Shown here piece after piece: positions 5,046 through 35,850 of a DNA stretch of 35,850 bases; the stretch's first letter is position 1, and every line of letters begins with the position of its first letter. Location: positions 1 through 35,850 of IMG/VR virus record IMGVR_UViG_3300035698_006058; one strand, 5' to 3'. The stretch is from a virus. The translations under genes and the position numbers were made by a program. The notes under the pieces are model-generated. The model had not been told where the DNA came from. It saw only the letters and a list, made by a program, of their open reading frames with translations, and searched no databases.

Positions 5046-5443
5046 TGCGCAGAGACATGAATTTCACACCTAACATGCGAGTGTCAACACGGCTCCGAGT
5101 TATTAACGAGATACGTTTAGAAAGCATTTTTACGATTAAAGAGATTGATACCCGAGGTGTTGTCAGCGTGTACGAGAGTCCTATGCTGTTTAAGCAAGGC
5201 ACTGGAGTTGAAGTACCCCCACGCAACGCCCCTGAAAGGATAGCGCACCGCCGCTGGATTGAACCAACAGAAAGGATTGATGAAGAAACACTCGTCCTGC
5301 GCGCTAAAAAACTAACGATGCAAAACGCGCAGCTGCGGGTAGATGCAGGCCTACGAGCACACCACAACTGGAGCGTAAATAAGATTGACGGGGTCAACCA
5401 CGCACTTGAAATGCTGATGCAACAAATAAACAGACCAGAATAA
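5042..5443 (+). CDS. Unknown early protein, coupled to previous gene (133 aa)
   Basis: 133 residues, basic. The start overlaps the preceding stop (ATGA at 5042-5045). Residues 15-45 could form a small beta domain (RVINEIRLESIFTIKEID), then a proline-rich segment, then a helical tail from about residue 75 (ERIDEETLVLRAKKLTMQNA). No motif identifies the function. The coupling suggests it works with the 178-residue neighbour in similar amounts. Confidence 0.68.
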   Translation: MMRRDMNFTPNMRVSTRLRVINEIRLESIFTIKEIDTRGVVSVYESPMLFKQGTGVEVPPRNAPERIAHRRWIEPTERIDEETLVLRAKKLTMQNAQLRVDAGLRAHHNWSVNKIDGVNHALEMLMQQINRPE

Positions 5444-5473
5444 ACCGACACTAACAAAATGAGGATAACAAAT

Positions 5474-5533
5474 ATGAGTGAATTTAAATACGAAGGTGCA
5501 GGATGGTATTTCAAAACGCTCAGAAAGCTTTAG
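5474..5533 (+). CDS. Possible micro-protein (19 aa)
   Basis: ATG at 5474 behind GAGGAT (5461-5466), reading 19 residues, MSEFKYEGAGWYFKTLRKL, to TAG. The ribosome site and spacing are acceptable, and otherwise the stretch between 5443 and 5570 is empty. It is too short to prove. It could be a leader peptide for the next gene or a remnant of a longer gene. Confidence 0.3.
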   Translation: MSEFKYEGAGWYFKTLRKL

Positions 5534-5569
5534 CTAAACACACAACAAAGGAAAGGAAAGTAAATAGAT

Positions 5570-5728
5570 ATGATTCACTGGATAGAAGAAAAAACAAACA
5601 CGCCATTCGCCGCTATGATGATTTACAAAGCAAGTGGATATAGTATTAACCCAAGTAAGTTTTATGATTCTGAAACAGTAGCTTTGGACGATATGAAACG
5701 CTTGTCTGAAAACAACAAAAGAGAATAA
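5570..5728 (+). CDS. Small unknown early protein (52 aa)
   Basis: ATG at 5570 with GGAAAGGAAAG upstream, TAA at 5726-5728, 52 residues. The N-terminus MIHWIEEKTNTPFAAMMIYK is amphipathic and the rest is polar and charged. It lies six bases before the small HTH gene and is probably co-translated with it. No family recognised; it is not long enough for a membrane role to be clear. Confidence 0.5.
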   Translation: MIHWIEEKTNTPFAAMMIYKASGYSINPSKFYDSETVALDDMKRLSENNKRE

Positions 5729-7969: not shown

Positions 7970-8587
7970 ATGTCAACTAATACACCAATGGGTGAAGTAA
8001 CCTTAAAAAACGTACGCCTCGCATTCAGCGACAACTTGTTCGAAGCAGGCATTAACAAAAATATCCAACAGAAGGCTGGGGAAAAACCACCTAAACCGCA
8101 GTTTAGCTCTACTTTCCTTGTCCCTAAAGGCAGTGAAGCAGATAAAGAACTCCGCGCAGCGATGATGGAAGTCGCGGTCGCTAAATGGGGCAAAGCTGCT
8201 GAGAAGAATCTCGAAGTTGCTCGCGGAAGCACCAACACTAACTGCTATCAGGATGGCGACAGCGCCGCGAAGCGTGACTACGATGGCTATGCAGGACACT
8301 ACGCTTTGGCAGCTAAGAACACCAAACGTCCCACCGTCGTAGACCGCGACCGCACGCCCCTTACTGAGAGCGAAGGCAGACCCTACTCGGGATGCTACGT
8401 CATGGCTAAGGTTAGCCTATGGGCGCAAGACAACAGCAACGGTCGCGCTATTCGTGCGTCACTCCTTGGTGTGCAGTTCTACAAAGACGGCGATGCCTTC
8501 GGAGCAGGACGTGTTGCGACGGTAGATGAGTTCGAAGACTTAGGTGTCGACGAGGACGCAGTTGATGACATGGATGGTATTGCGTAA
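7970..8587 (+). CDS. DUF2815-type single-stranded DNA-binding protein
   Basis: 205 residues from the ATG at 7970, chosen because AGAAAGGA lies 10 bases upstream; an in-frame start at 7910 would lie inside the nuclease gene. The start GEVTLKNVRLAFSDNLFEAG and the later SGCYVMAKVSLWAQDN, RASLLGVQFYKDG are typical of the DUF2815 family, thought to have an OB-fold like T7 gp2.5. The acidic C-terminal tail (DEDAVDDMDG) is a hallmark of phage ssDNA-binding proteins and recruits polymerase or helicase. It should coat single strands during replication. It is followed without a gap by a tiny membrane-protein gene. Confidence 0.85.
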   Translation: MSTNTPMGEVTLKNVRLAFSDNLFEAGINKNIQQKAGEKPPKPQFSSTFLVPKGSEADKELRAAMMEVAVAKWGKAAEKNLEVARGSTNTNCYQDGDSAAKRDYDGYAGHYALAAKNTKRPTVVDRDRTPLTESEGRPYSGCYVMAKVSLWAQDNSNGRAIRASLLGVQFYKDGDAFGAGRVATVDEFEDLGVDEDAVDDMDGIA

Positions 8588-8769: not shown

Positions 8770-9159
8770 ATGGACTTAGACACACTAACACTAGGAGACA
8801 TTAAACAGCTTCAAAGCCTTATGGGCGGGAGCACATCTAACAAGCCATCACTTGGAAGCCATCTTATTGGTAAGTATGTGATTGTGAGAACGCGCAATGA
8901 AGGTATTAATTCAGGGTATATCACCGCGTTAGACGACACAGGTATCGTTCTTAAAGACGCCCGCCGCTTCTACTACCACAAACCGAAAGACAAGGCGCAA
9001 TCTTGGTACGAGGGAATAGCAAACAGTGGCTTACATAAGGATTCAAAAGTCAGTTCAGCCGTGAGTGAAAAAGTGATTGTTGAAGATTACTCAATTACCG
9101 TTTGCTCTGCTGACGGGCAGAAATCAATTGAAGGATTTGCGAGCCATGAACAAAATTAG
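8770..9159 (+). CDS. DUF6948-like small phage protein (129 aa)
   Basis: 129 residues. The N-terminus DTLTLGDIKQLQSLMGG and the core HLIGKYVIVRTRNEGINSGY followed by DARRFYYHKPK resemble a widespread small phage family that I know as DUF6948. The core looks like a small SH3/Sm-like beta-barrel (KYVIVRT, GYITALDDTGIVLKDARRF). Biochemical role not established. The final 14 bases overlap, in another frame, the start of the Gly-X repeat gene at 9146, so the two genes are coupled. The GAAAG ribosome site is modest. Confidence 0.7.
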   Translation: MDLDTLTLGDIKQLQSLMGGSTSNKPSLGSHLIGKYVIVRTRNEGINSGYITALDDTGIVLKDARRFYYHKPKDKAQSWYEGIANSGLHKDSKVSSAVSEKVIVEDYSITVCSADGQKSIEGFASHEQN

Positions 9160-9472
9160 TTCTAAAATAGAATCTTTCAATGGCTTTGGCTATAGCTATA
9201 GCTATGGCTATGGCACTGGCTACGGTTCTGGCTTTGGCGCTGGCACTGGCGATGGCGCTGGCGCTGGCTTTGGCGATGGCTTTGGCGATGGCAATGGCGC
9301 TGGCGATGGCGATGGCACTGGCGCTGGCACTGGCGATGGCACTGGCTATAGCTTTGGCGATGGCTTTGGCGATGGCTACGGTTCTGGCACTGGCGCTGGC
9401 ACTGGCGATGGCTATGGCTATGGCGCTGGCTATGGCACTGGCGATGGCGCTGGCGATGGCTATGGCTATTAG
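9146..9472 (+). CDS. Gly-X dipeptide-repeat protein, copy 1 (108 aa)
   Basis: The start is taken at ATG 9146, which is where the sequence shared with the second copy begins. After the leader MNKISSKIESFNG, nearly every second residue is Gly, alternating with Asp, Ala, Thr, Tyr, Phe, Ser or Asn, e.g. GYGSGFGAGTGDGAGAGFGD. Such a chain is likely flexible and acidic, perhaps binding ions or acting as a surface or spacer protein. I recall Gly-rich repeat proteins next to DUF6948-like genes in other phages, but know no function. Because the unit is six bases, copy number can change by slippage without breaking the frame. Confidence 0.62.
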   Translation: MNKISSKIESFNGFGYSYSYGYGTGYGSGFGAGTGDGAGAGFGDGFGDGNGAGDGDGTGAGTGDGTGYSFGDGFGDGYGSGTGAGTGDGYGYGAGYGTGDGAGDGYGY

Positions 9473-9504
9473 TCAAAAAAGGTCACGTATGAAAGGAAAA
9501 AGTC

Positions 9505-9693
9505 ATGAACAAAATTAGTTCTAAAATAGAATCTTTCAATGGCGCTGGCACTGGCGATGGCGCTGGCGATGGCTATGGCGATGGCTATGGCGATGGCTAC
9601 GGTTCTGGCTTTGGCGCTGGCACTGGCGATGGCGCTGGCGCTGGCGCTGGCTATGGCACTGGCGATGGCGCTGGCGATGGTGATGGCTATTAG
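9505..9693 (+). CDS. Gly-X dipeptide-repeat protein, copy 2 (62 aa)
   Basis: A shorter paralogue of the 9146-9472 gene. The first 39 bases from ATG are identical to copy 1 (9146-9184 versus 9505-9543), and 22 bases across the stop codon are also identical (9464-9485 versus 9685-9706). The repeat is shorter, with runs such as GDGYGDGYGDGYGSG. GAAAGGAAAAAG lies before the ATG. It arose by tandem duplication followed by change in repeat number. It may be expressed separately, or may be a by-product of repeat instability. Confidence 0.58.
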   Translation: MNKISSKIESFNGAGTGDGAGDGYGDGYGDGYGSGFGAGTGDGAGAGAGYGTGDGAGDGDGY

Positions 9694-9754
9694 TCAAAAA
9701 AGGTCAGAGGCTACCAAGCCTCACAGAGTTTTAACGATAAAGAAAGCTACTGAA

Positions 9755-9886
9755 ATGACTAAACAGCAACTAGATATCTTCTATAAAATACCGCTAATCA
9801 TATGCGCAGTGCTGATTGTAATGGTGCTTATATTCTTTTTAATCACTCACACATTAAAAACAATAGCGGTTTTGTTTGCGCTTTAG
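9755..9886 (+). CDS. Small hydrophobic membrane protein (43 aa)
   Basis: ATG at 9755 with AAAGAAAG about 10 bases upstream, to TAG at 9884-9886, 43 residues. It begins MTKQQLDIFYKIP and is then almost wholly hydrophobic (LIICAVLIVMVLIFFLITH), a single membrane span. The same frame stays open upstream through the alternative Ala-Leu-Met frame of the Gly-X repeat to 9539, but the internal ATG with its own ribosome site is the more reasonable start. A role in host-membrane modification is possible but not shown. Confidence 0.5.
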   Translation: MTKQQLDIFYKIPLIICAVLIVMVLIFFLITHTLKTIAVLFAL

Positions 9887-9968: not shown

Positions 9969-12251
9969 ATGGTTAAGCAATACCTATACCTAGATACCGA
10001 AACCTACAGCGAGGAACCCATCGCGAACGGCACATACAAGTATGCCGAAAACGCCGCGGTTATGATTTGCACTTATGCACTGGGCGACGGCGAGGTGAAG
10101 GTGTGGGACGCTTCGCCGTGTGGGCAGGACAAACGTGCACAGATGCTCGAACAGATATGGCGCGAGCACGAAACTATCGAACAATTTGACCCCAAAAACG
10201 GGGATGTGCAGTGGCTGAGCGCTAACATCTCAAACGCGTGTTCTGAGTGGTTGCATTCACCTACCGTGGTGTGCCAACCCGACATGCCCGAAGATTTACG
10301 GAGGATGTTGAACGACGAGGACATCACGCAGGTTTGGCATAACAGTATGTTTGACCGCAACATACTGAAGTACGCGGAAAACATTCACGTTCCACCTGAA
10401 CGAATCTTTGACACCGCGGTAACCGCGGCGATGCACGGCTTACCTATGGGGCTAGACAAACTATGCAAGATTTTTGGAATCGCTGAGGACAAAGCTAAGA
10501 GTAAAGACGGGCGTAGACTCATCATGTTGTTTTGTAAACCCAGACCTAAGAGTTTCAAACTCGCCCGCGCGACAGCGGGAACACACCCAGAAGAGTGGGC
10601 GGCGTTCATCGACTACGCCAAGAAGGATGTTGTAGCGATGCGAGAAATTCACCGCAAGATACCCAAGTGGAACTGCACCGAGGGAGAGATGGGGTTGTGG
10701 TGCCTAGACCAACGTATCAACGACAGAGGATACCGCATCGACACGGAGCTGACGGACGGAGCACTAGATGCTGTTACATTGGTACAGAAGAAATTGGCCG
10801 CGAAAACCAAACGTATGACTGAGGGCTACGTCCAGTCTGCAACACAGCGAGACGAACTCTTACTGCACTTACTCGCGGAACATGGTGTAAGTTTACCCGA
10901 CATGACTAAAAGCACGCTACAACGCCGCATGGACGACGAGAGTTTACCTAAGTATGCGCGCGACCTTATCGCCACTCGCCTAGAGACCGCGACTACCAGC
11001 ACCAGTAAATATAAGAAGCTACGTAACGGGGTGAACGTAGATGGTCGCCTGCGAGGGACACTCCAGTTTTGTGGTGCGTCACGCACGGGGCGTTGGAGTG
11101 GACGTACGTTTCAACCCCAAAACCTCCCTCGACCAACACATAAGCAGGCAGTTATCGAAGCCGCGATACCGTATTTTAAACTGGGCTGCATTGACTTAGT
11201 CAGTGACGACGTGATGAAGCTTGCGAGCTCTAGTATCCGCTCGTGCATTGTGGCGGAGGAGCACCACCAACTCGTGGTATCAGATTTGTCTAATATCGAA
11301 GGCAGAGTAGCCGCATGGTTGGCAGGGGAGCAATGGAAAGTTGACGCGTTTTCTGCGTACGATAATATCCTTGGTTGGGGGGTGGATAAAGAGGGGAACC
11401 CACAAGCTGTACGTGAAGGACACGATTTGTACGCCCTCGCGTACGCCCGCTCGTTCAATACTACACCAGAAGCTGTTGTAGATAACAAAAATAACGGAGA
11501 TGGTTCGATGCGTCAACTTGGTAAGGTGCAGGAACTCGCACTCGGTTATGGTGGTGGGGTAGGTGCGTTTGTATCTATGGTGGCTAACTATCGTATCGAC
11601 TTAACGGATATGGCTACGAAGGTTTTGCCTAATGTCCCCGCAGATGTTCTGAGTGATGCGACCCGTTTCTATAACAGTCGTACAGACGCTCAACGCTTTG
11701 GGCTAACAAAAGATGTTTTCGTGGCATGTGACTCGGTCAAGCGACTATGGCGTGCGTCACAACCTGAGATATCCAGCTACTGGTACGAGCTGGAAGACGC
11801 TATGCGTCGGTGCATCGAGACAGGTTCCCCGCAGAAAACCCGTCGAATTATTTTTGATATGAAGAAGGCGTGGTTGCGCGTTCTCCTCCCATCTGGCCGC
11901 GTGCTGTGCTACCCGTCTCCTAAAATATCAGAGGAAGGCACCATAACGTACTCGGGCATCAATCAGTATACTCGCCAGTGGGGGCGCATAAAAACTTACG
12001 GGGGAAAGATTTTTGAGAATATTTGTCAAGCAGTAGCACGTGACGTGATGACGGCTAACATGCCCCGCATTGAACAACGTGGATTTGATATACTACTCAC
12101 AGTACACGACGAGCTTATCACCGAGGTACCGACGTCCCTCGGGTTGAACGATAGGGTTCTGTCAGCGTTGATGGCGGAGGTGCCCCCGTGGGCAGAAGGC
12201 CTCCCTCTAGCCGCGGCAGGATTTACAGCAGATAGATATAGAAAGGACTAA
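9969..12251 (+). CDS. Family A DNA polymerase with 3'-5' proofreading domain
   Basis: 760 residues. The N-terminal exonuclease domain has all three motifs: Exo I LDTET (D9, E11), Exo II WHNSMFDRNIL, and Exo III YAKKDVVAMREI. The polymerase domain has motif A SDLSNIEGR (D439), motif B around LGKVQELALGYGGG, and motif C TVHDELITE (H713, D714, E715). The catalytic aspartates are intact, so it should be an active proofreading replicase. AAAGGAAA precedes the ATG. Gene order (nuclease, ssDNA-binding protein, polymerase, VRR-NUC, SNF2 helicase) matches a known phage replication module. The phage therefore brings its own polymerase while still using host RNA polymerase. Confidence 0.95.
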   Translation: MVKQYLYLDTETYSEEPIANGTYKYAENAAVMICTYALGDGEVKVWDASPCGQDKRAQMLEQIWREHETIEQFDPKNGDVQWLSANISNACSEWLHSPTVVCQPDMPEDLRRMLNDEDITQVWHNSMFDRNILKYAENIHVPPERIFDTAVTAAMHGLPMGLDKLCKIFGIAEDKAKSKDGRRLIMLFCKPRPKSFKLARATAGTHPEEWAAFIDYAKKDVVAMREIHRKIPKWNCTEGEMGLWCLDQRINDRGYRIDTELTDGALDAVTLVQKKLAAKTKRMTEGYVQSATQRDELLLHLLAEHGVSLPDMTKSTLQRRMDDESLPKYARDLIATRLETATTSTSKYKKLRNGVNVDGRLRGTLQFCGASRTGRWSGRTFQPQNLPRPTHKQAVIEAAIPYFKLGCIDLVSDDVMKLASSSIRSCIVAEEHHQLVVSDLSNIEGRVAAWLAGEQWKVDAFSAYDNILGWGVDKEGNPQAVREGHDLYALAYARSFNTTPEAVVDNKNNGDGSMRQLGKVQELALGYGGGVGAFVSMVANYRIDLTDMATKVLPNVPADVLSDATRFYNSRTDAQRFGLTKDVFVACDSVKRLWRASQPEISSYWYELEDAMRRCIETGSPQKTRRIIFDMKKAWLRVLLPSGRVLCYPSPKISEEGTITYSGINQYTRQWGRIKTYGGKIFENICQAVARDVMTANMPRIEQRGFDILLTVHDELITEVPTSLGLNDRVLSALMAEVPPWAEGLPLAAAGFTADRYRKD

Positions 12252-17128: not shown

Positions 17129-19084
17129 TTAGTTTCCTCCAAATATTACCGCAAAAGCAAACTCTAAGTCAGAAGTGCTATACCCTGCGTTTGCTCCCGT
17201 TAGACGGGCGGCTGTTGTTAAGTTATTGTTTACGTTTCCAGGCGAGGAGAGAAAGAATCCCGCCGAATTGTTAGACGCGTTCCCGCTGGTAGCCACAACA
17301 TAATTAGCGTTTGCCATCGCGGTTGCAAAATTCATCCTGTATTGCCCTGTTGCATCGTCAGTAATACTTGAAACATTAAAGCTATCACGGATTGCAACCG
17401 TGCCCGTACCGTTAAAGTTAACCCACGCGGTGGCCTTGCCCTCAGAGCCACCAGCTAAAGCGTCTATGGCTTCCTTAGTCCGCAACGGCGTCATACCAAC
17501 AGTGTCCAACGTTCCCGCTTCGGCCTGTGCTTGCGAGGCTTTGTTTAGTGTCCCCATATCGTTTATCCCTAGGTTAGTCCGCGCACCAGCAGCATTGCTT
17601 GAATTTGTGCCCCCGTTAGCAACGGATAAGTCCGTCCCTGACCAGTCAGAGTTGTTTATGTTACTTTTAAAAGCAAGGTCGCTAATGCCGTTATCACTTA
17701 TGATTTGGCTATAAAAGTTACTTATGTTTATAAAGGCTGGCTCGCCAGTCGTCGCGTCAACAGACAACATAACACCATCTGCTGACTGTGTATTTGAAGT
17801 TTCGGTTAACGTAGAAAAGTCTAAGTCTTCAGCTTTTACAGCATTCAACACCCCTACAGCTCCGATACCCAAATTGTTTCTGGCTGTTGCTGCGTTAGAC
17901 AGGTCTGACAGATTGTTGGCTGCGAGCAAGTCCCCTGCCCCCGCCCCGTCGGTACCCTTCGCGGCAAGAATATCCCAGTATGTTACGTTTGGCGGTGATT
18001 GGTTGCTGTGCGCCTGAATACATATGTATGACGTGCCCGCTTTCTCAACTGCGTCATTGAGTGCGTAAGTAGTTGCGCTACTCCAAACACCCTGCCACTC
18101 AATCATAGCCACAGCAGCAGCTGTCGCGCTGGTCGCGGCGTTAGTCTCGCTAGTAGCAGCAGCTGTCGCGCTGGTCGCGGCGTTAGTCTCACTCGTAGCA
18201 GCAGCTGTCGCGCTGGTCGCGGCGTTAGTCTCACTCGTAGCAGCATTGGTCTCACTCGTAGCAGCTGCACTCGCGGAGTCCGCGGCATTGGTCTCACTTG
18301 TAGCTGCGTTTGTCTCTGAACTAGCAGCATTGGTTGCTGCTGTTGCTGCCGTTCCCTCCGCGGCTACAGCTGCTGTTTCACTCGCAGCTGAGGCTGTGGC
18401 GGAAGAAGATGCTGCGGAAGCAGAAGTTGAAGCTGTGCTGGCCGACCCTGCCGCCGCGGTAGCTGAGCTTGAAGCGGCGGCGGCGGCTGTGCTTGCTGTG
18501 CTGGCAGACGCTGAAGCGGATGAGGCGGATGAAGCAGCGTTAGTCTCACTCAACGCGGCGGCTGTTGCTGCCGCCTCTGCGGCTGCTTTGTCCGTTGCGA
18601 CACTGGCCACGGATACACCGTTTTTGGTGTTACCAGATGTACCATCCCACGCTAGAATAGCGTCGTCTACTGGATTCTGTCCGATAGTTCCTGTGAATGA
18701 ACTACCAAGGGGGAAGGCCAACCCACGGCCTAGCTCGTTTTGTTGCTCTTGGGCGATGGCAGTTAGTTTGTCATACGCACTCTCTGTGTTAGCGCCTTGA
18801 AATCCTTTTGAAGTACGGAAAGGTACCGTTTGGTCTCGGGTCACTTCCCGCGTTGTAATAACGTAATTGGCGCTAGTGGGAGCGACAGAGAAGGTGACGG
18901 TAACTTGGGTCGAAGTAATAGCTACTGTGAATCCTGAGGACTGCAACGTCTGCGAACCTGTAGTAACATCTTCAAAATAAACTTTAACAAACGAGACGTT
19001 TAGCGCGTCCCATGTGGATGTGAAAATAGTTGTAGCGCCATTACCTAGCTGGCGGGTGGGAGCGTAGTTGTCGGATATGCTCAT
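17129..19084 (-). CDS. Tail fiber protein, T7-type N-terminus
   Basis: 651 residues. Residues 1-150 match the N-terminal tail-attachment domain of T7 gp17-like fibers (NYAPTRQLGNGATTIFTSTW, RDQTVPFRTSKGFQGAN). Residues ~165-325 form a long Ala/Ser/Thr-rich rod with coiled-coil tendency, including three exact or near-exact 14-residue repeats. A carbohydrate-module-like segment follows (WQGVWSSATTYALNDAVEKA). The C-terminal ~150 residues are the likely receptor-binding tip, with beta-rich, Gly/Asn-rich sequence (TAWVNFNGTGTVAIRDSFNV). This protein should decide host range. AAGGTGA lies seven bases before the ATG. No reverse transcriptase or template repeat is nearby. Confidence 0.9.
   Translation of the reverse strand: MSISDNYAPTRQLGNGATTIFTSTWDALNVSFVKVYFEDVTTGSQTLQSSGFTVAITSTQVTVTFSVAPTSANYVITTREVTRDQTVPFRTSKGFQGANTESAYDKLTAIAQEQQNELGRGLAFPLGSSFTGTIGQNPVDDAILAWDGTSGNTKNGVSVASVATDKAAAEAAATAAALSETNAASSASSASASASTASTAAAAASSSATAAAGSASTASTSASAASSSATASAASETAAVAAEGTAATAATNAASSETNAATSETNAADSASAAATSETNAATSETNAATSATAAATSETNAATSATAAATSETNAATSATAAAVAMIEWQGVWSSATTYALNDAVEKAGTSYICIQAHSNQSPPNVTYWDILAAKGTDGAGAGDLLAANNLSDLSNAATARNNLGIGAVGVLNAVKAEDLDFSTLTETSNTQSADGVMLSVDATTGEPAFINISNFYSQIISDNGISDLAFKSNINNSDWSGTDLSVANGGTNSSNAAGARTNLGINDMGTLNKASQAQAEAGTLDTVGMTPLRTKEAIDALAGGSEGKATAWVNFNGTGTVAIRDSFNVSSITDDATGQYRMNFATAMANANYVVATSGNASNNSAGFFLSSPGNVNNNLTTAARLTGANAGYSTSDLEFAFAVIFGGN
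18114..18239 (-). repeat. Three 42-bp direct repeats in the fiber rod
   Basis: Units at 18114-18155, 18156-18197 and 18198-18239 are identical except for a couple of bases. Each encodes 14 residues of the ATSETNAATSATAA type. The next segment, to about 18300, continues with partial units. Because the unit is a multiple of three, expansion or loss lengthens or shortens the fiber rod without breaking the frame. Confidence 0.88.
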
Positions 19085-35714: not shown

Positions 35715-35850
35715 GTATACATAGGTTAAATTTACATTCTAGTATACATAGGTTAAATTTACATTCTACATTCTACATTCTAGTATACATAGGTTAAATT
35801 TACATTCTACATTCTACATTCTAGTATACATAGGTTAAATTTACATTCTA
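35715..35850. repeat. Four 27-bp tandem repeats at the right edge
   Basis: The 27-mer starting GTATACATAGGTTAAATTTA and ending CATTCTA occurs at 35715-35741, 35742-35768, 35783-35809 and 35824-35850. Between copies 2/3 and 3/4 there are two extra CATTCTA units, giving a 41-base period there. The window ends exactly at the end of copy 4, so the array may continue. Copies 2-4 are preceded by CTA, forming CTAGTATAC, also present at 4214-4222. Likely binding sites for a regulator of the late promoter, or part of a genome end. Confidence 0.85.

Follow-up and report, generated by a model that had tools for sequence, protein, structure and literature searches.

Silk fibroin-type repeats alternate glycine with alanine, serine or tyrosine. 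In Acinetobacter baumannii, RNA binding by Hfq is altered by the GGFGGQ repeats and the acidic tip of its low-complexity tail, and this tail is reported to be fully conserved between clinical strains (PMC11617691). Glycine-rich regions also occur in the linker of the single-stranded DNA-binding protein SSB, where they influence condensation, and acidic residues added to the linker suppress it (PMC12143593). A hypervariable tandem-repeat gene of a Gracilibacterium is built of PTD repeats, with nearly all of its variation synonymous and the tripeptide fixed (PMC6851277). For the Pfam family DUF6948 (PF22253), no function, fold or partner is recorded in the libraries that we searched, and the family is not mentioned in the literature searched.

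Here, we describe a conserved two-gene phage cassette in which a DUF6948 gene is followed by a gene encoding a chain of glycine alternating with a variable residue X (Gly-X). One copy lies in the window, by which we mean the whole 35,850-base IMG/VR virus record IMGVR_UViG_3300035698_006058 (positions 1 to 35,850). The record also carries a terminase, a portal-type adaptor and an endolysin. The locus comprises the following features:

7970–8587, + strand: gp2.5-like ssDNA-binding/annealing protein (phrog_112, 1.2e-41)
8770–9159, + strand: DUF6948 gene, 129 aa; Pfam domain at 8869–9129, predicted Sm/LSm-like beta-barrel
9130–9135, + strand: Shine-Dalgarno-like GAAGGA of Gly-X gene 1 (direct reading)
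9146–9472, + strand: Gly-X gene 1, 108 aa; ATG at 9146, TAG at 9470–9472
9146–9184 and 9505–9543, + strand: 39-nt start ATGAACAAAATTAGTTCTAAAATAGAATCTTTCAATGGC, encoding MNKISSKIESFNG, identical in both Gly-X genes
9217–9268 and 9594–9645, + strand: 52-nt internal block identical in genes 1 and 2
9462–9485 and 9683–9706, + strand: 24-nt end across the stop codon, identical in genes 1 and 2
9492–9497, + strand: Shine-Dalgarno-like AAAGGA of Gly-X gene 2 (direct reading)
9505–9693, + strand: Gly-X gene 2, 62 aa; shorter-tract tandem copy of gene 1
9969–12251, + strand: DNA polymerase (phrog_17, 3.8e-113)

The upstream gene belongs to DUF6948 over the curated cut-off, to which our analysis adds a predicted Sm-like fold and the Gly-X partner. 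As in Acinetobacter Hfq, an Sm-type beta-barrel (predicted in DUF6948) is combined with a glycine-rich, aromatic and acidic low-complexity chain. However, the phage chain is a separate gene, strictly alternating and hypervariable between near-identical phages; a glycine-rich tail in cis on the Sm core was not found in the window or in the relatives examined, where the chain has its own frame. With the SSB linker it shares a glycine-rich, low-complexity make-up with acidic residues and a DNA-recombination context, the neighbors of the cassette often being SSB or ssDNA-annealing proteins, whereas the SSB linker lies in cis on an OB fold and loses condensation upon acidic substitution. The likeness to silk fibroin lies in glycine at every second residue with Ala, Ser or Tyr between (gene 2 of the window is rich in GAG and GYG), but this is a short cytoplasmic phage protein with about one quarter Asp at X, no homology and no secretion signal seen, and no Pfam match passed the cut-off. 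The PTD gene likewise varies between near-identical genomes while keeping its motif and breaking assemblies (PMC6851277); it is nevertheless cellular and has no Sm-like partner, and Gly-X changes both residues and length. The RTX nonapeptide GGxGxDxxx does not apply to the window genes, which alternate strictly with period 2 and have no GG pairs. Nor is this an on/off phase-variable contingency locus, since every length difference is a multiple of 6 and leaves the frame intact.

In the window, the first 14 nt of gene 1 also belong to the 3′ end of the DUF6948 gene, and period-6 arrays (TRF) span 9180–9469 and 9539–9687. The original prediction of two adjacent Gly-X genes with an identical 39-base start and different repeat numbers was borne out; their ends are identical as it held, over 24 nt rather than the 22 it gave, with 8 nt before the stop codon and 16 nt from the stop onward. 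None of 2,000 repeat-unit shuffles reached the 52-nt internal block (maximum 47 nt), which makes gene 2 a duplicate of altered length rather than a chance resemblance. At X, gene 1 has D11 Y10 T8 A8 F5 S2 N1 (net charge −10) and gene 2 has D8 A7 Y5 T3 S1 F1 (net charge −7), differing from the family in having Ala and Thr in place of Ser. Across 59 full GGC-NN-T units, the first N is never C and the second never G; these changes would bring His/Leu/Pro/Arg or Cys/Gly/Arg/Ser, respectively, into the Gly-X frame. A second forward frame of the tracts, reading Ala-Met/Leu, is also open, which carries no weight, as no forward frame of a GGCNNT repeat can contain a stop, and the coding argument for Gly-X thus rests on residue choice and on relatives. 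Directly after gene 2, at 9755–9886, lies a small predicted membrane protein, MTKQQLDIFYKIPLIICAVLIVMVLIFFLITHTLKTIAVLFAL, whose frame runs on from the Ala-Met/Leu frame of the repeat and may mislead gene callers.

A scan of the window returned no Rfam family and no promoter or terminator signal above chance. Neither megablast against phages nor an exact search with the leader DNA recovered a near relative of this phage. Relatives of its DNA polymerase reach at most 62% identity over part of the protein, with no Gly-X array in the flanks that we fetched, and the closest relatives of its DUF6948 protein share at most 40% identity. No profile in PHROGs, NCBIfam or PADLOC matched the Gly-X proteins and/or DUF6948. 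Matches of the tracts to Pfam TrAA12 fell below the cut-off and were discarded as resembling low-complexity chance.

The window DUF6948 protein scored 52.5 bits against PF22253 (curated cut-off 27), and an AlphaFold2 model built with 29 relatives reached a mean pLDDT of 90.1 and a pTM of 0.75. All 50 Foldseek matches listed against the PDB were Sm/LSm chains (probability 0.98–1.00, target TM up to 0.73), among them archaeal SmAP, yeast Lsm3 and spliceosomal Sm proteins. The best E-value was modest (3.3e-3), and small beta-barrels resemble each other. The model has the five-stranded bent beta-barrel of the Sm fold, in prediction and without a solved structure, and the conserved G45, G49, L61 and R65/R66 are compatible with an Sm1-like core. 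At the sequence level, no Sm/LSm/Hfq profile (Sm1/Sm2 motifs) passed its curated cut-off, the match to Pfam SM-ATX was sub-threshold (16.6 against 29.8 bits, E = 0.0094), and a PDB sequence search gave no match; we therefore call DUF6948 Sm-like and do not file it as an Sm member. Judging from the model, it is probably an Sm/LSm-like beta-barrel forming a nucleic-acid-binding oligomer, the ring and the RNA or DNA binding being inferred. In a viral structure library (BFVD), the top matches were DUF6948-named proteins and the next was a Rheinheimera Barba phage protein, a ranking that fits with gp018 of Barba phages being a divergent member. The Barba phage transcriptomes resolve early and late clusters (PMC9305737), and we claim no expression time for gp017 or gp018.

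We scanned IMG/VR for seven GGCDHT units and obtained at least 120 stretches, a search biased to the GGC/NNT codon scheme. After low-entropy removal, at least 83 sources, the window included, hold (Gly-X)n proteins with a short leader and a tract of tens of residues, sometimes as several tandem genes. The entropy filter also removed GSGSGS, GVGV and GDGD runs, which are low-complexity frames within larger or reverse ORFs and have no relation to the Gly-X genes. DUF6948 passed the PF22253 cut-off in 44 of 49 array-bearing virus records against 0 of 14 control genomes, mostly immediately upstream of Gly-X on the same strand. Among the remaining five, a divergent DUF6948-like gene stands in that position in L024, and L041 is cut at the contig end; in L030, L064 and L067 no DUF6948 was found in the available stretch. 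The L030 array (IMGVR_UViG_3300044630_005032) is of a Gly-X/His type near other long simple repeats, and it may be a different kind of element.

In a reciprocal test, we used DUF6948 alone as the query and collected 31 loci in bacterial and archaeal assemblies together with the best 80 of 262 viral-contig loci. A Gly-X gene lay directly downstream in 88 of the 90 loci with at least 250 nt after DUF6948. In 0.95 Mb of DUF6948 stretches, 105 Gly-X ORFs were found beside DUF6948 and a single one elsewhere, just upstream of a DUF6948 gene. Collection scans could not rely on the wide DUF6948 alignment (A1), which was too divergent, and the closer subset used instead (A2) biases this test to canonical members; divergent forms (Rheinheimera, L024, L043, L085, L103, L111) were covered separately. 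One record, MW202478 (Manatee Spring), has DUF6948 without an adjoining Gly-X gene. The suggestion that alternating-glycine proteins be sought beside DUF6948-like genes proved decisive. The composition, which had been called very unusual, is unusual indeed, but the protein type is not rare and proved to be very widespread.

Phages with the pair were recovered with Proteobacteria, Bacteroidota, Clostridia and candidate phyla, with hosts inferred from the metagenome-bin titles of contigs (Gracilibacteria, Saccharibacteria, Bacteroides, Prevotella, Clostridia, Syntrophaceae, Rhodoferax, Acidobacteria and a Woesearchaeota bin). Isolates with the pair include seven Pectobacterium phages, Dickeya phage Setonix, Iodobacter phage PhiPLPE, Vibrio phage IKEMa6-1, Chlorobiaceae phage CV-1-33 and 115 Rheinheimera Barba records. 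Tandem Gly-X genes recur, with five in L023, seven in L096, two each in L106 and L128, and further cases in L172, L177, L204 and L228. Neighbors in other loci include exonuclease VIII, Erf, SSB, RecE, Bet, Sak4 and RusA, and most loci are set among replication and recombination genes rather than virion genes. In the Chlorobiaceae phage (MT192033.1), the CDS annotated at 5349–5594 follows the wrong frame through the repeat (MAMAMALA...).

On these grounds we propose, with a probability of roughly 0.4, that the cassette encodes an Sm-like protein with a separately encoded, acidic and tyrosine-rich disordered tail that acts in replication or recombination. DUF6948 would form a small Sm/LSm-like barrel, probably a nucleic-acid-binding oligomer. 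The second gene would encode a leader of about 7–13 residues followed by a long acidic low-complexity chain with Ser, Tyr, Asp, Asn or Phe at X (Asp, Tyr, Ala, Thr or Phe in the window), serving as a tail detachable from the Sm-like protein and supplied in trans. The leader may dock on the Sm-like core, and the flexible chain would tune the binding, release or clustering of nucleic acid in the replication/recombination compartment. Such a function would need only composition and rough length, and under this proposal dipeptide order and copy number would drift freely for that reason; six-base slippage or unequal recombination could then yield in-frame length alleles and whole-gene tandem duplicates like that of the window. 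The proposal of a disordered tail encoded in trans draws on the replication and recombination neighbors and on the Acinetobacter Hfq and SSB parallels. The two-way pairing, the gp2.5-like SSB/DNA polymerase context, the acidic chain, its variability and the predicted Sm fold speak for this reading, and the folded C-terminal domain of some gut versions, described below, is left unexplained by it. The physical partnership, the nucleic-acid binding and the tail function are all inferred, and no experiment bears on expression or on either interaction. Since acidic residues suppress SSB condensation, plain homotypic condensation of the acidic chain is disfavored. A simple electrostatic pair is unsupported too: DUF6948 is near neutral in net charge, and its charge does not correlate with that of the chain across loci (rho 0.08, p 0.49).

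The broader suggestion is doubtful and should be read as a conjecture: an undescribed phage system, spread across many bacterial phyla, in which a Sm-like nucleic-acid-binding protein and a trans-encoded hypervariable Gly-[Ser/Tyr/Asp] chain would jointly organize or protect replicating phage nucleic acid, for instance as a tunable condensate, with slippage as a tuner or as an escape from host recognition.

Gly-X genes are hypervariable and duplicate in tandem. In all seven Pectobacterium phages the protein opens with the leader MSKLIKPEKYG, and in most it closes with GEG-stop; the genes measure 162, 204, 222, 222, 222, 258 and 270 nt, all multiples of 6. Two of them, Ymer and Amona, show 100% identity across the 2,000 nt that precede the tract, yet the longest block that their tracts share is 15 residues. 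Among 60 evenly spaced records of the 115 Rheinheimera Barba records, the spans were 1275 (41), 1281 (17), 1305 (1) and 1317 (1) nt. Across 1,065 flanking nt (523 upstream and 542 downstream), five Baltic Rheinheimera alleles show no mismatch; their tracts are told apart by a single Asn-to-Tyr change and by 6-nt insertions, which fall at three separate sites. Two more phages, with 1–3 flank mismatches, carry +30 and +42 nt relative to the common allele. In-frame length variation in steps of 6, as the original prediction anticipated, is therefore real in both isolate collections; it rests on relatives and not on the window's own phage, for which no near relative is available. Contig ends within 300 nt of DUF6948 lie downstream in 22 cases and upstream in 2 (p = 4e-5), as expected if the array breaks assembly.

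The main rival to the tail model draws on this same variation. The chain may be a counter-defense or decoy protein under diversifying selection, either recognized by the host or binding a variable host target, with slippage as an evolved diversity generator. Extreme tract variation between otherwise identical flanks in two isolate collections, the tandem gene copies and a location in the early region would all agree with this. However, the residues drift in order but not in composition, a pattern to be expected where constraint on order is relaxed, and five environmental contigs with 99.3–99.9% identical flanks carry identical tracts, from which we conclude that the rate of variation differs by lineage. 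None of the 29 DUF6948 members matched a PADLOC defense profile, and no known defense partner was seen. We consider such a role unlikely, though it cannot be set aside.

To return to the chain itself, we re-measured codon use on DUF6948-found loci because the first scan was biased to GGC/NNT. The schemes were GGC+NNT (39), GGC+NNC (21), GGT+NNC (17), GGG+NNC (4) and a few others. Ser (34%), Tyr (25%) and Asp (22%) dominate X overall and under each main scheme, followed by Phe (4%) and Asn (4%), with Lys, Leu, Pro, Val and Gln almost absent; the median net charge of the chain is −9. Short leaders of about 7–13 residues are conserved within groups. A tract without frame conservation in relatives would have counted against the original prediction, and practically all relatives preserve the Gly-X frame. 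What is conserved, though, is the amino-acid pattern and not the six-base unit that had been singled out.

Gut-type Gly-X proteins run in frame into a C-terminal domain of roughly 155 aa with invariant LTGSC and FAHG (L041, L026, L027, L042, L051, L074, L075, L101, L126 and L136–L158). Its model is confident (pLDDT 93.6), with a five-stranded sheet part and helices; no Pfam, PHROG or NCBIfam family matched it, and the PDB gave no structural match (best E 0.48) and no sequence relative, so the domain offers no clue to function. In L092, the tract is fused on the minus strand, near 513–1008, to DUF7666, a gut-phage domain. These in-frame fusions argue for Gly-X translation. The L092 tract also slips into an Ala-Met frame (MAMAMA...) adjoining a DUF6948-like ORF, which looks like a frameshift inside the repeat.

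The confidently modeled gut domain and the fibroin-type alternation of Gly with Ala, Ser or Tyr could suggest a structural protein, a silk-like or sticky fiber for the virion, the tail or host-cell remodeling, with DUF6948 as an assembly factor. This is improbable: about 22% Asp at X would disturb sheet packing, most loci adjoin replication and recombination genes and not virion genes, and the adjacent Pectobacterium tail genes are on the opposite strand. Still less credible is a selfish or neutral microsatellite ORF without function, since the almost free evolution of order and length that such an ORF would show is accompanied by constant pairing with DUF6948 across very diverse phages, a constant residue class and short leaders conserved within groups.

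The repeat could act as DNA or RNA, that is, as a recombination hot spot, a structured RNA or an origin element with an incidental Gly-X reading, and the RNA of gene 1 does fold better than dinucleotide shuffles (z −5.3), but this is already largely refuted by the four main codon schemes with similar X composition, folding strength that is not conserved across them, the lack of an Rfam match, the retention of start codon, leader and frame, and the in-frame fusions to folded domains (the C-terminal domain in L041, L126 and others, DUF7666 in L092). Mean folding z was −4.3 for GGC/NNT, +2.0 for GGC/NNC and +1.7 for GGG/NNC, the latter two weaker than shuffles, so RNA structure is not a common feature. 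Because differing codon sets keep the X composition while RNA folding is unconserved, the tract is selected as a protein.

No description of Gly-X proteins was found in the literature searched, which lacked most subscription journals, and an earlier one cannot be excluded. In that literature neither gene has an assigned function and no system combines the two, although the way the cassette is proposed to work has known parallels. Hundreds of phages sampled from soil, water, the sea and the gut carry this pair, which was apparently overlooked because its second gene is of low complexity: BLAST filters it out, none of the family libraries searched has a profile for it, annotation sometimes picks the wrong frame, and it breaks assemblies. 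Trypsin-based proteomics would also be blind to it, as the tract has no Lys or Arg. Gly-X offers, in isolates, a natural model for a protein constrained in composition yet free in order and length, and DUF6948 gains a predicted fold and a partner that make its function testable in cultured phages.

Further repeats lie in the window. At 1412–1503, an iteron-like 18-base repeat, AACTCGCATAAAACTACA, stands in five perfect copies at the 3′ end of a minus-strand 786-aa ORF, with an 11-base repeat adjoining. Repeats of 42/63 bases at 18113–18316, within a minus-strand 651-aa ORF (17129–19084), encode the Ala/Ser/Thr/Asn-Glu repeats of a fiber-like protein. At the end of the record, a 41-base unit is repeated perfectly in tandem, in 2.9 copies (35733–35850), another site where assembly may have stopped at a repeat.
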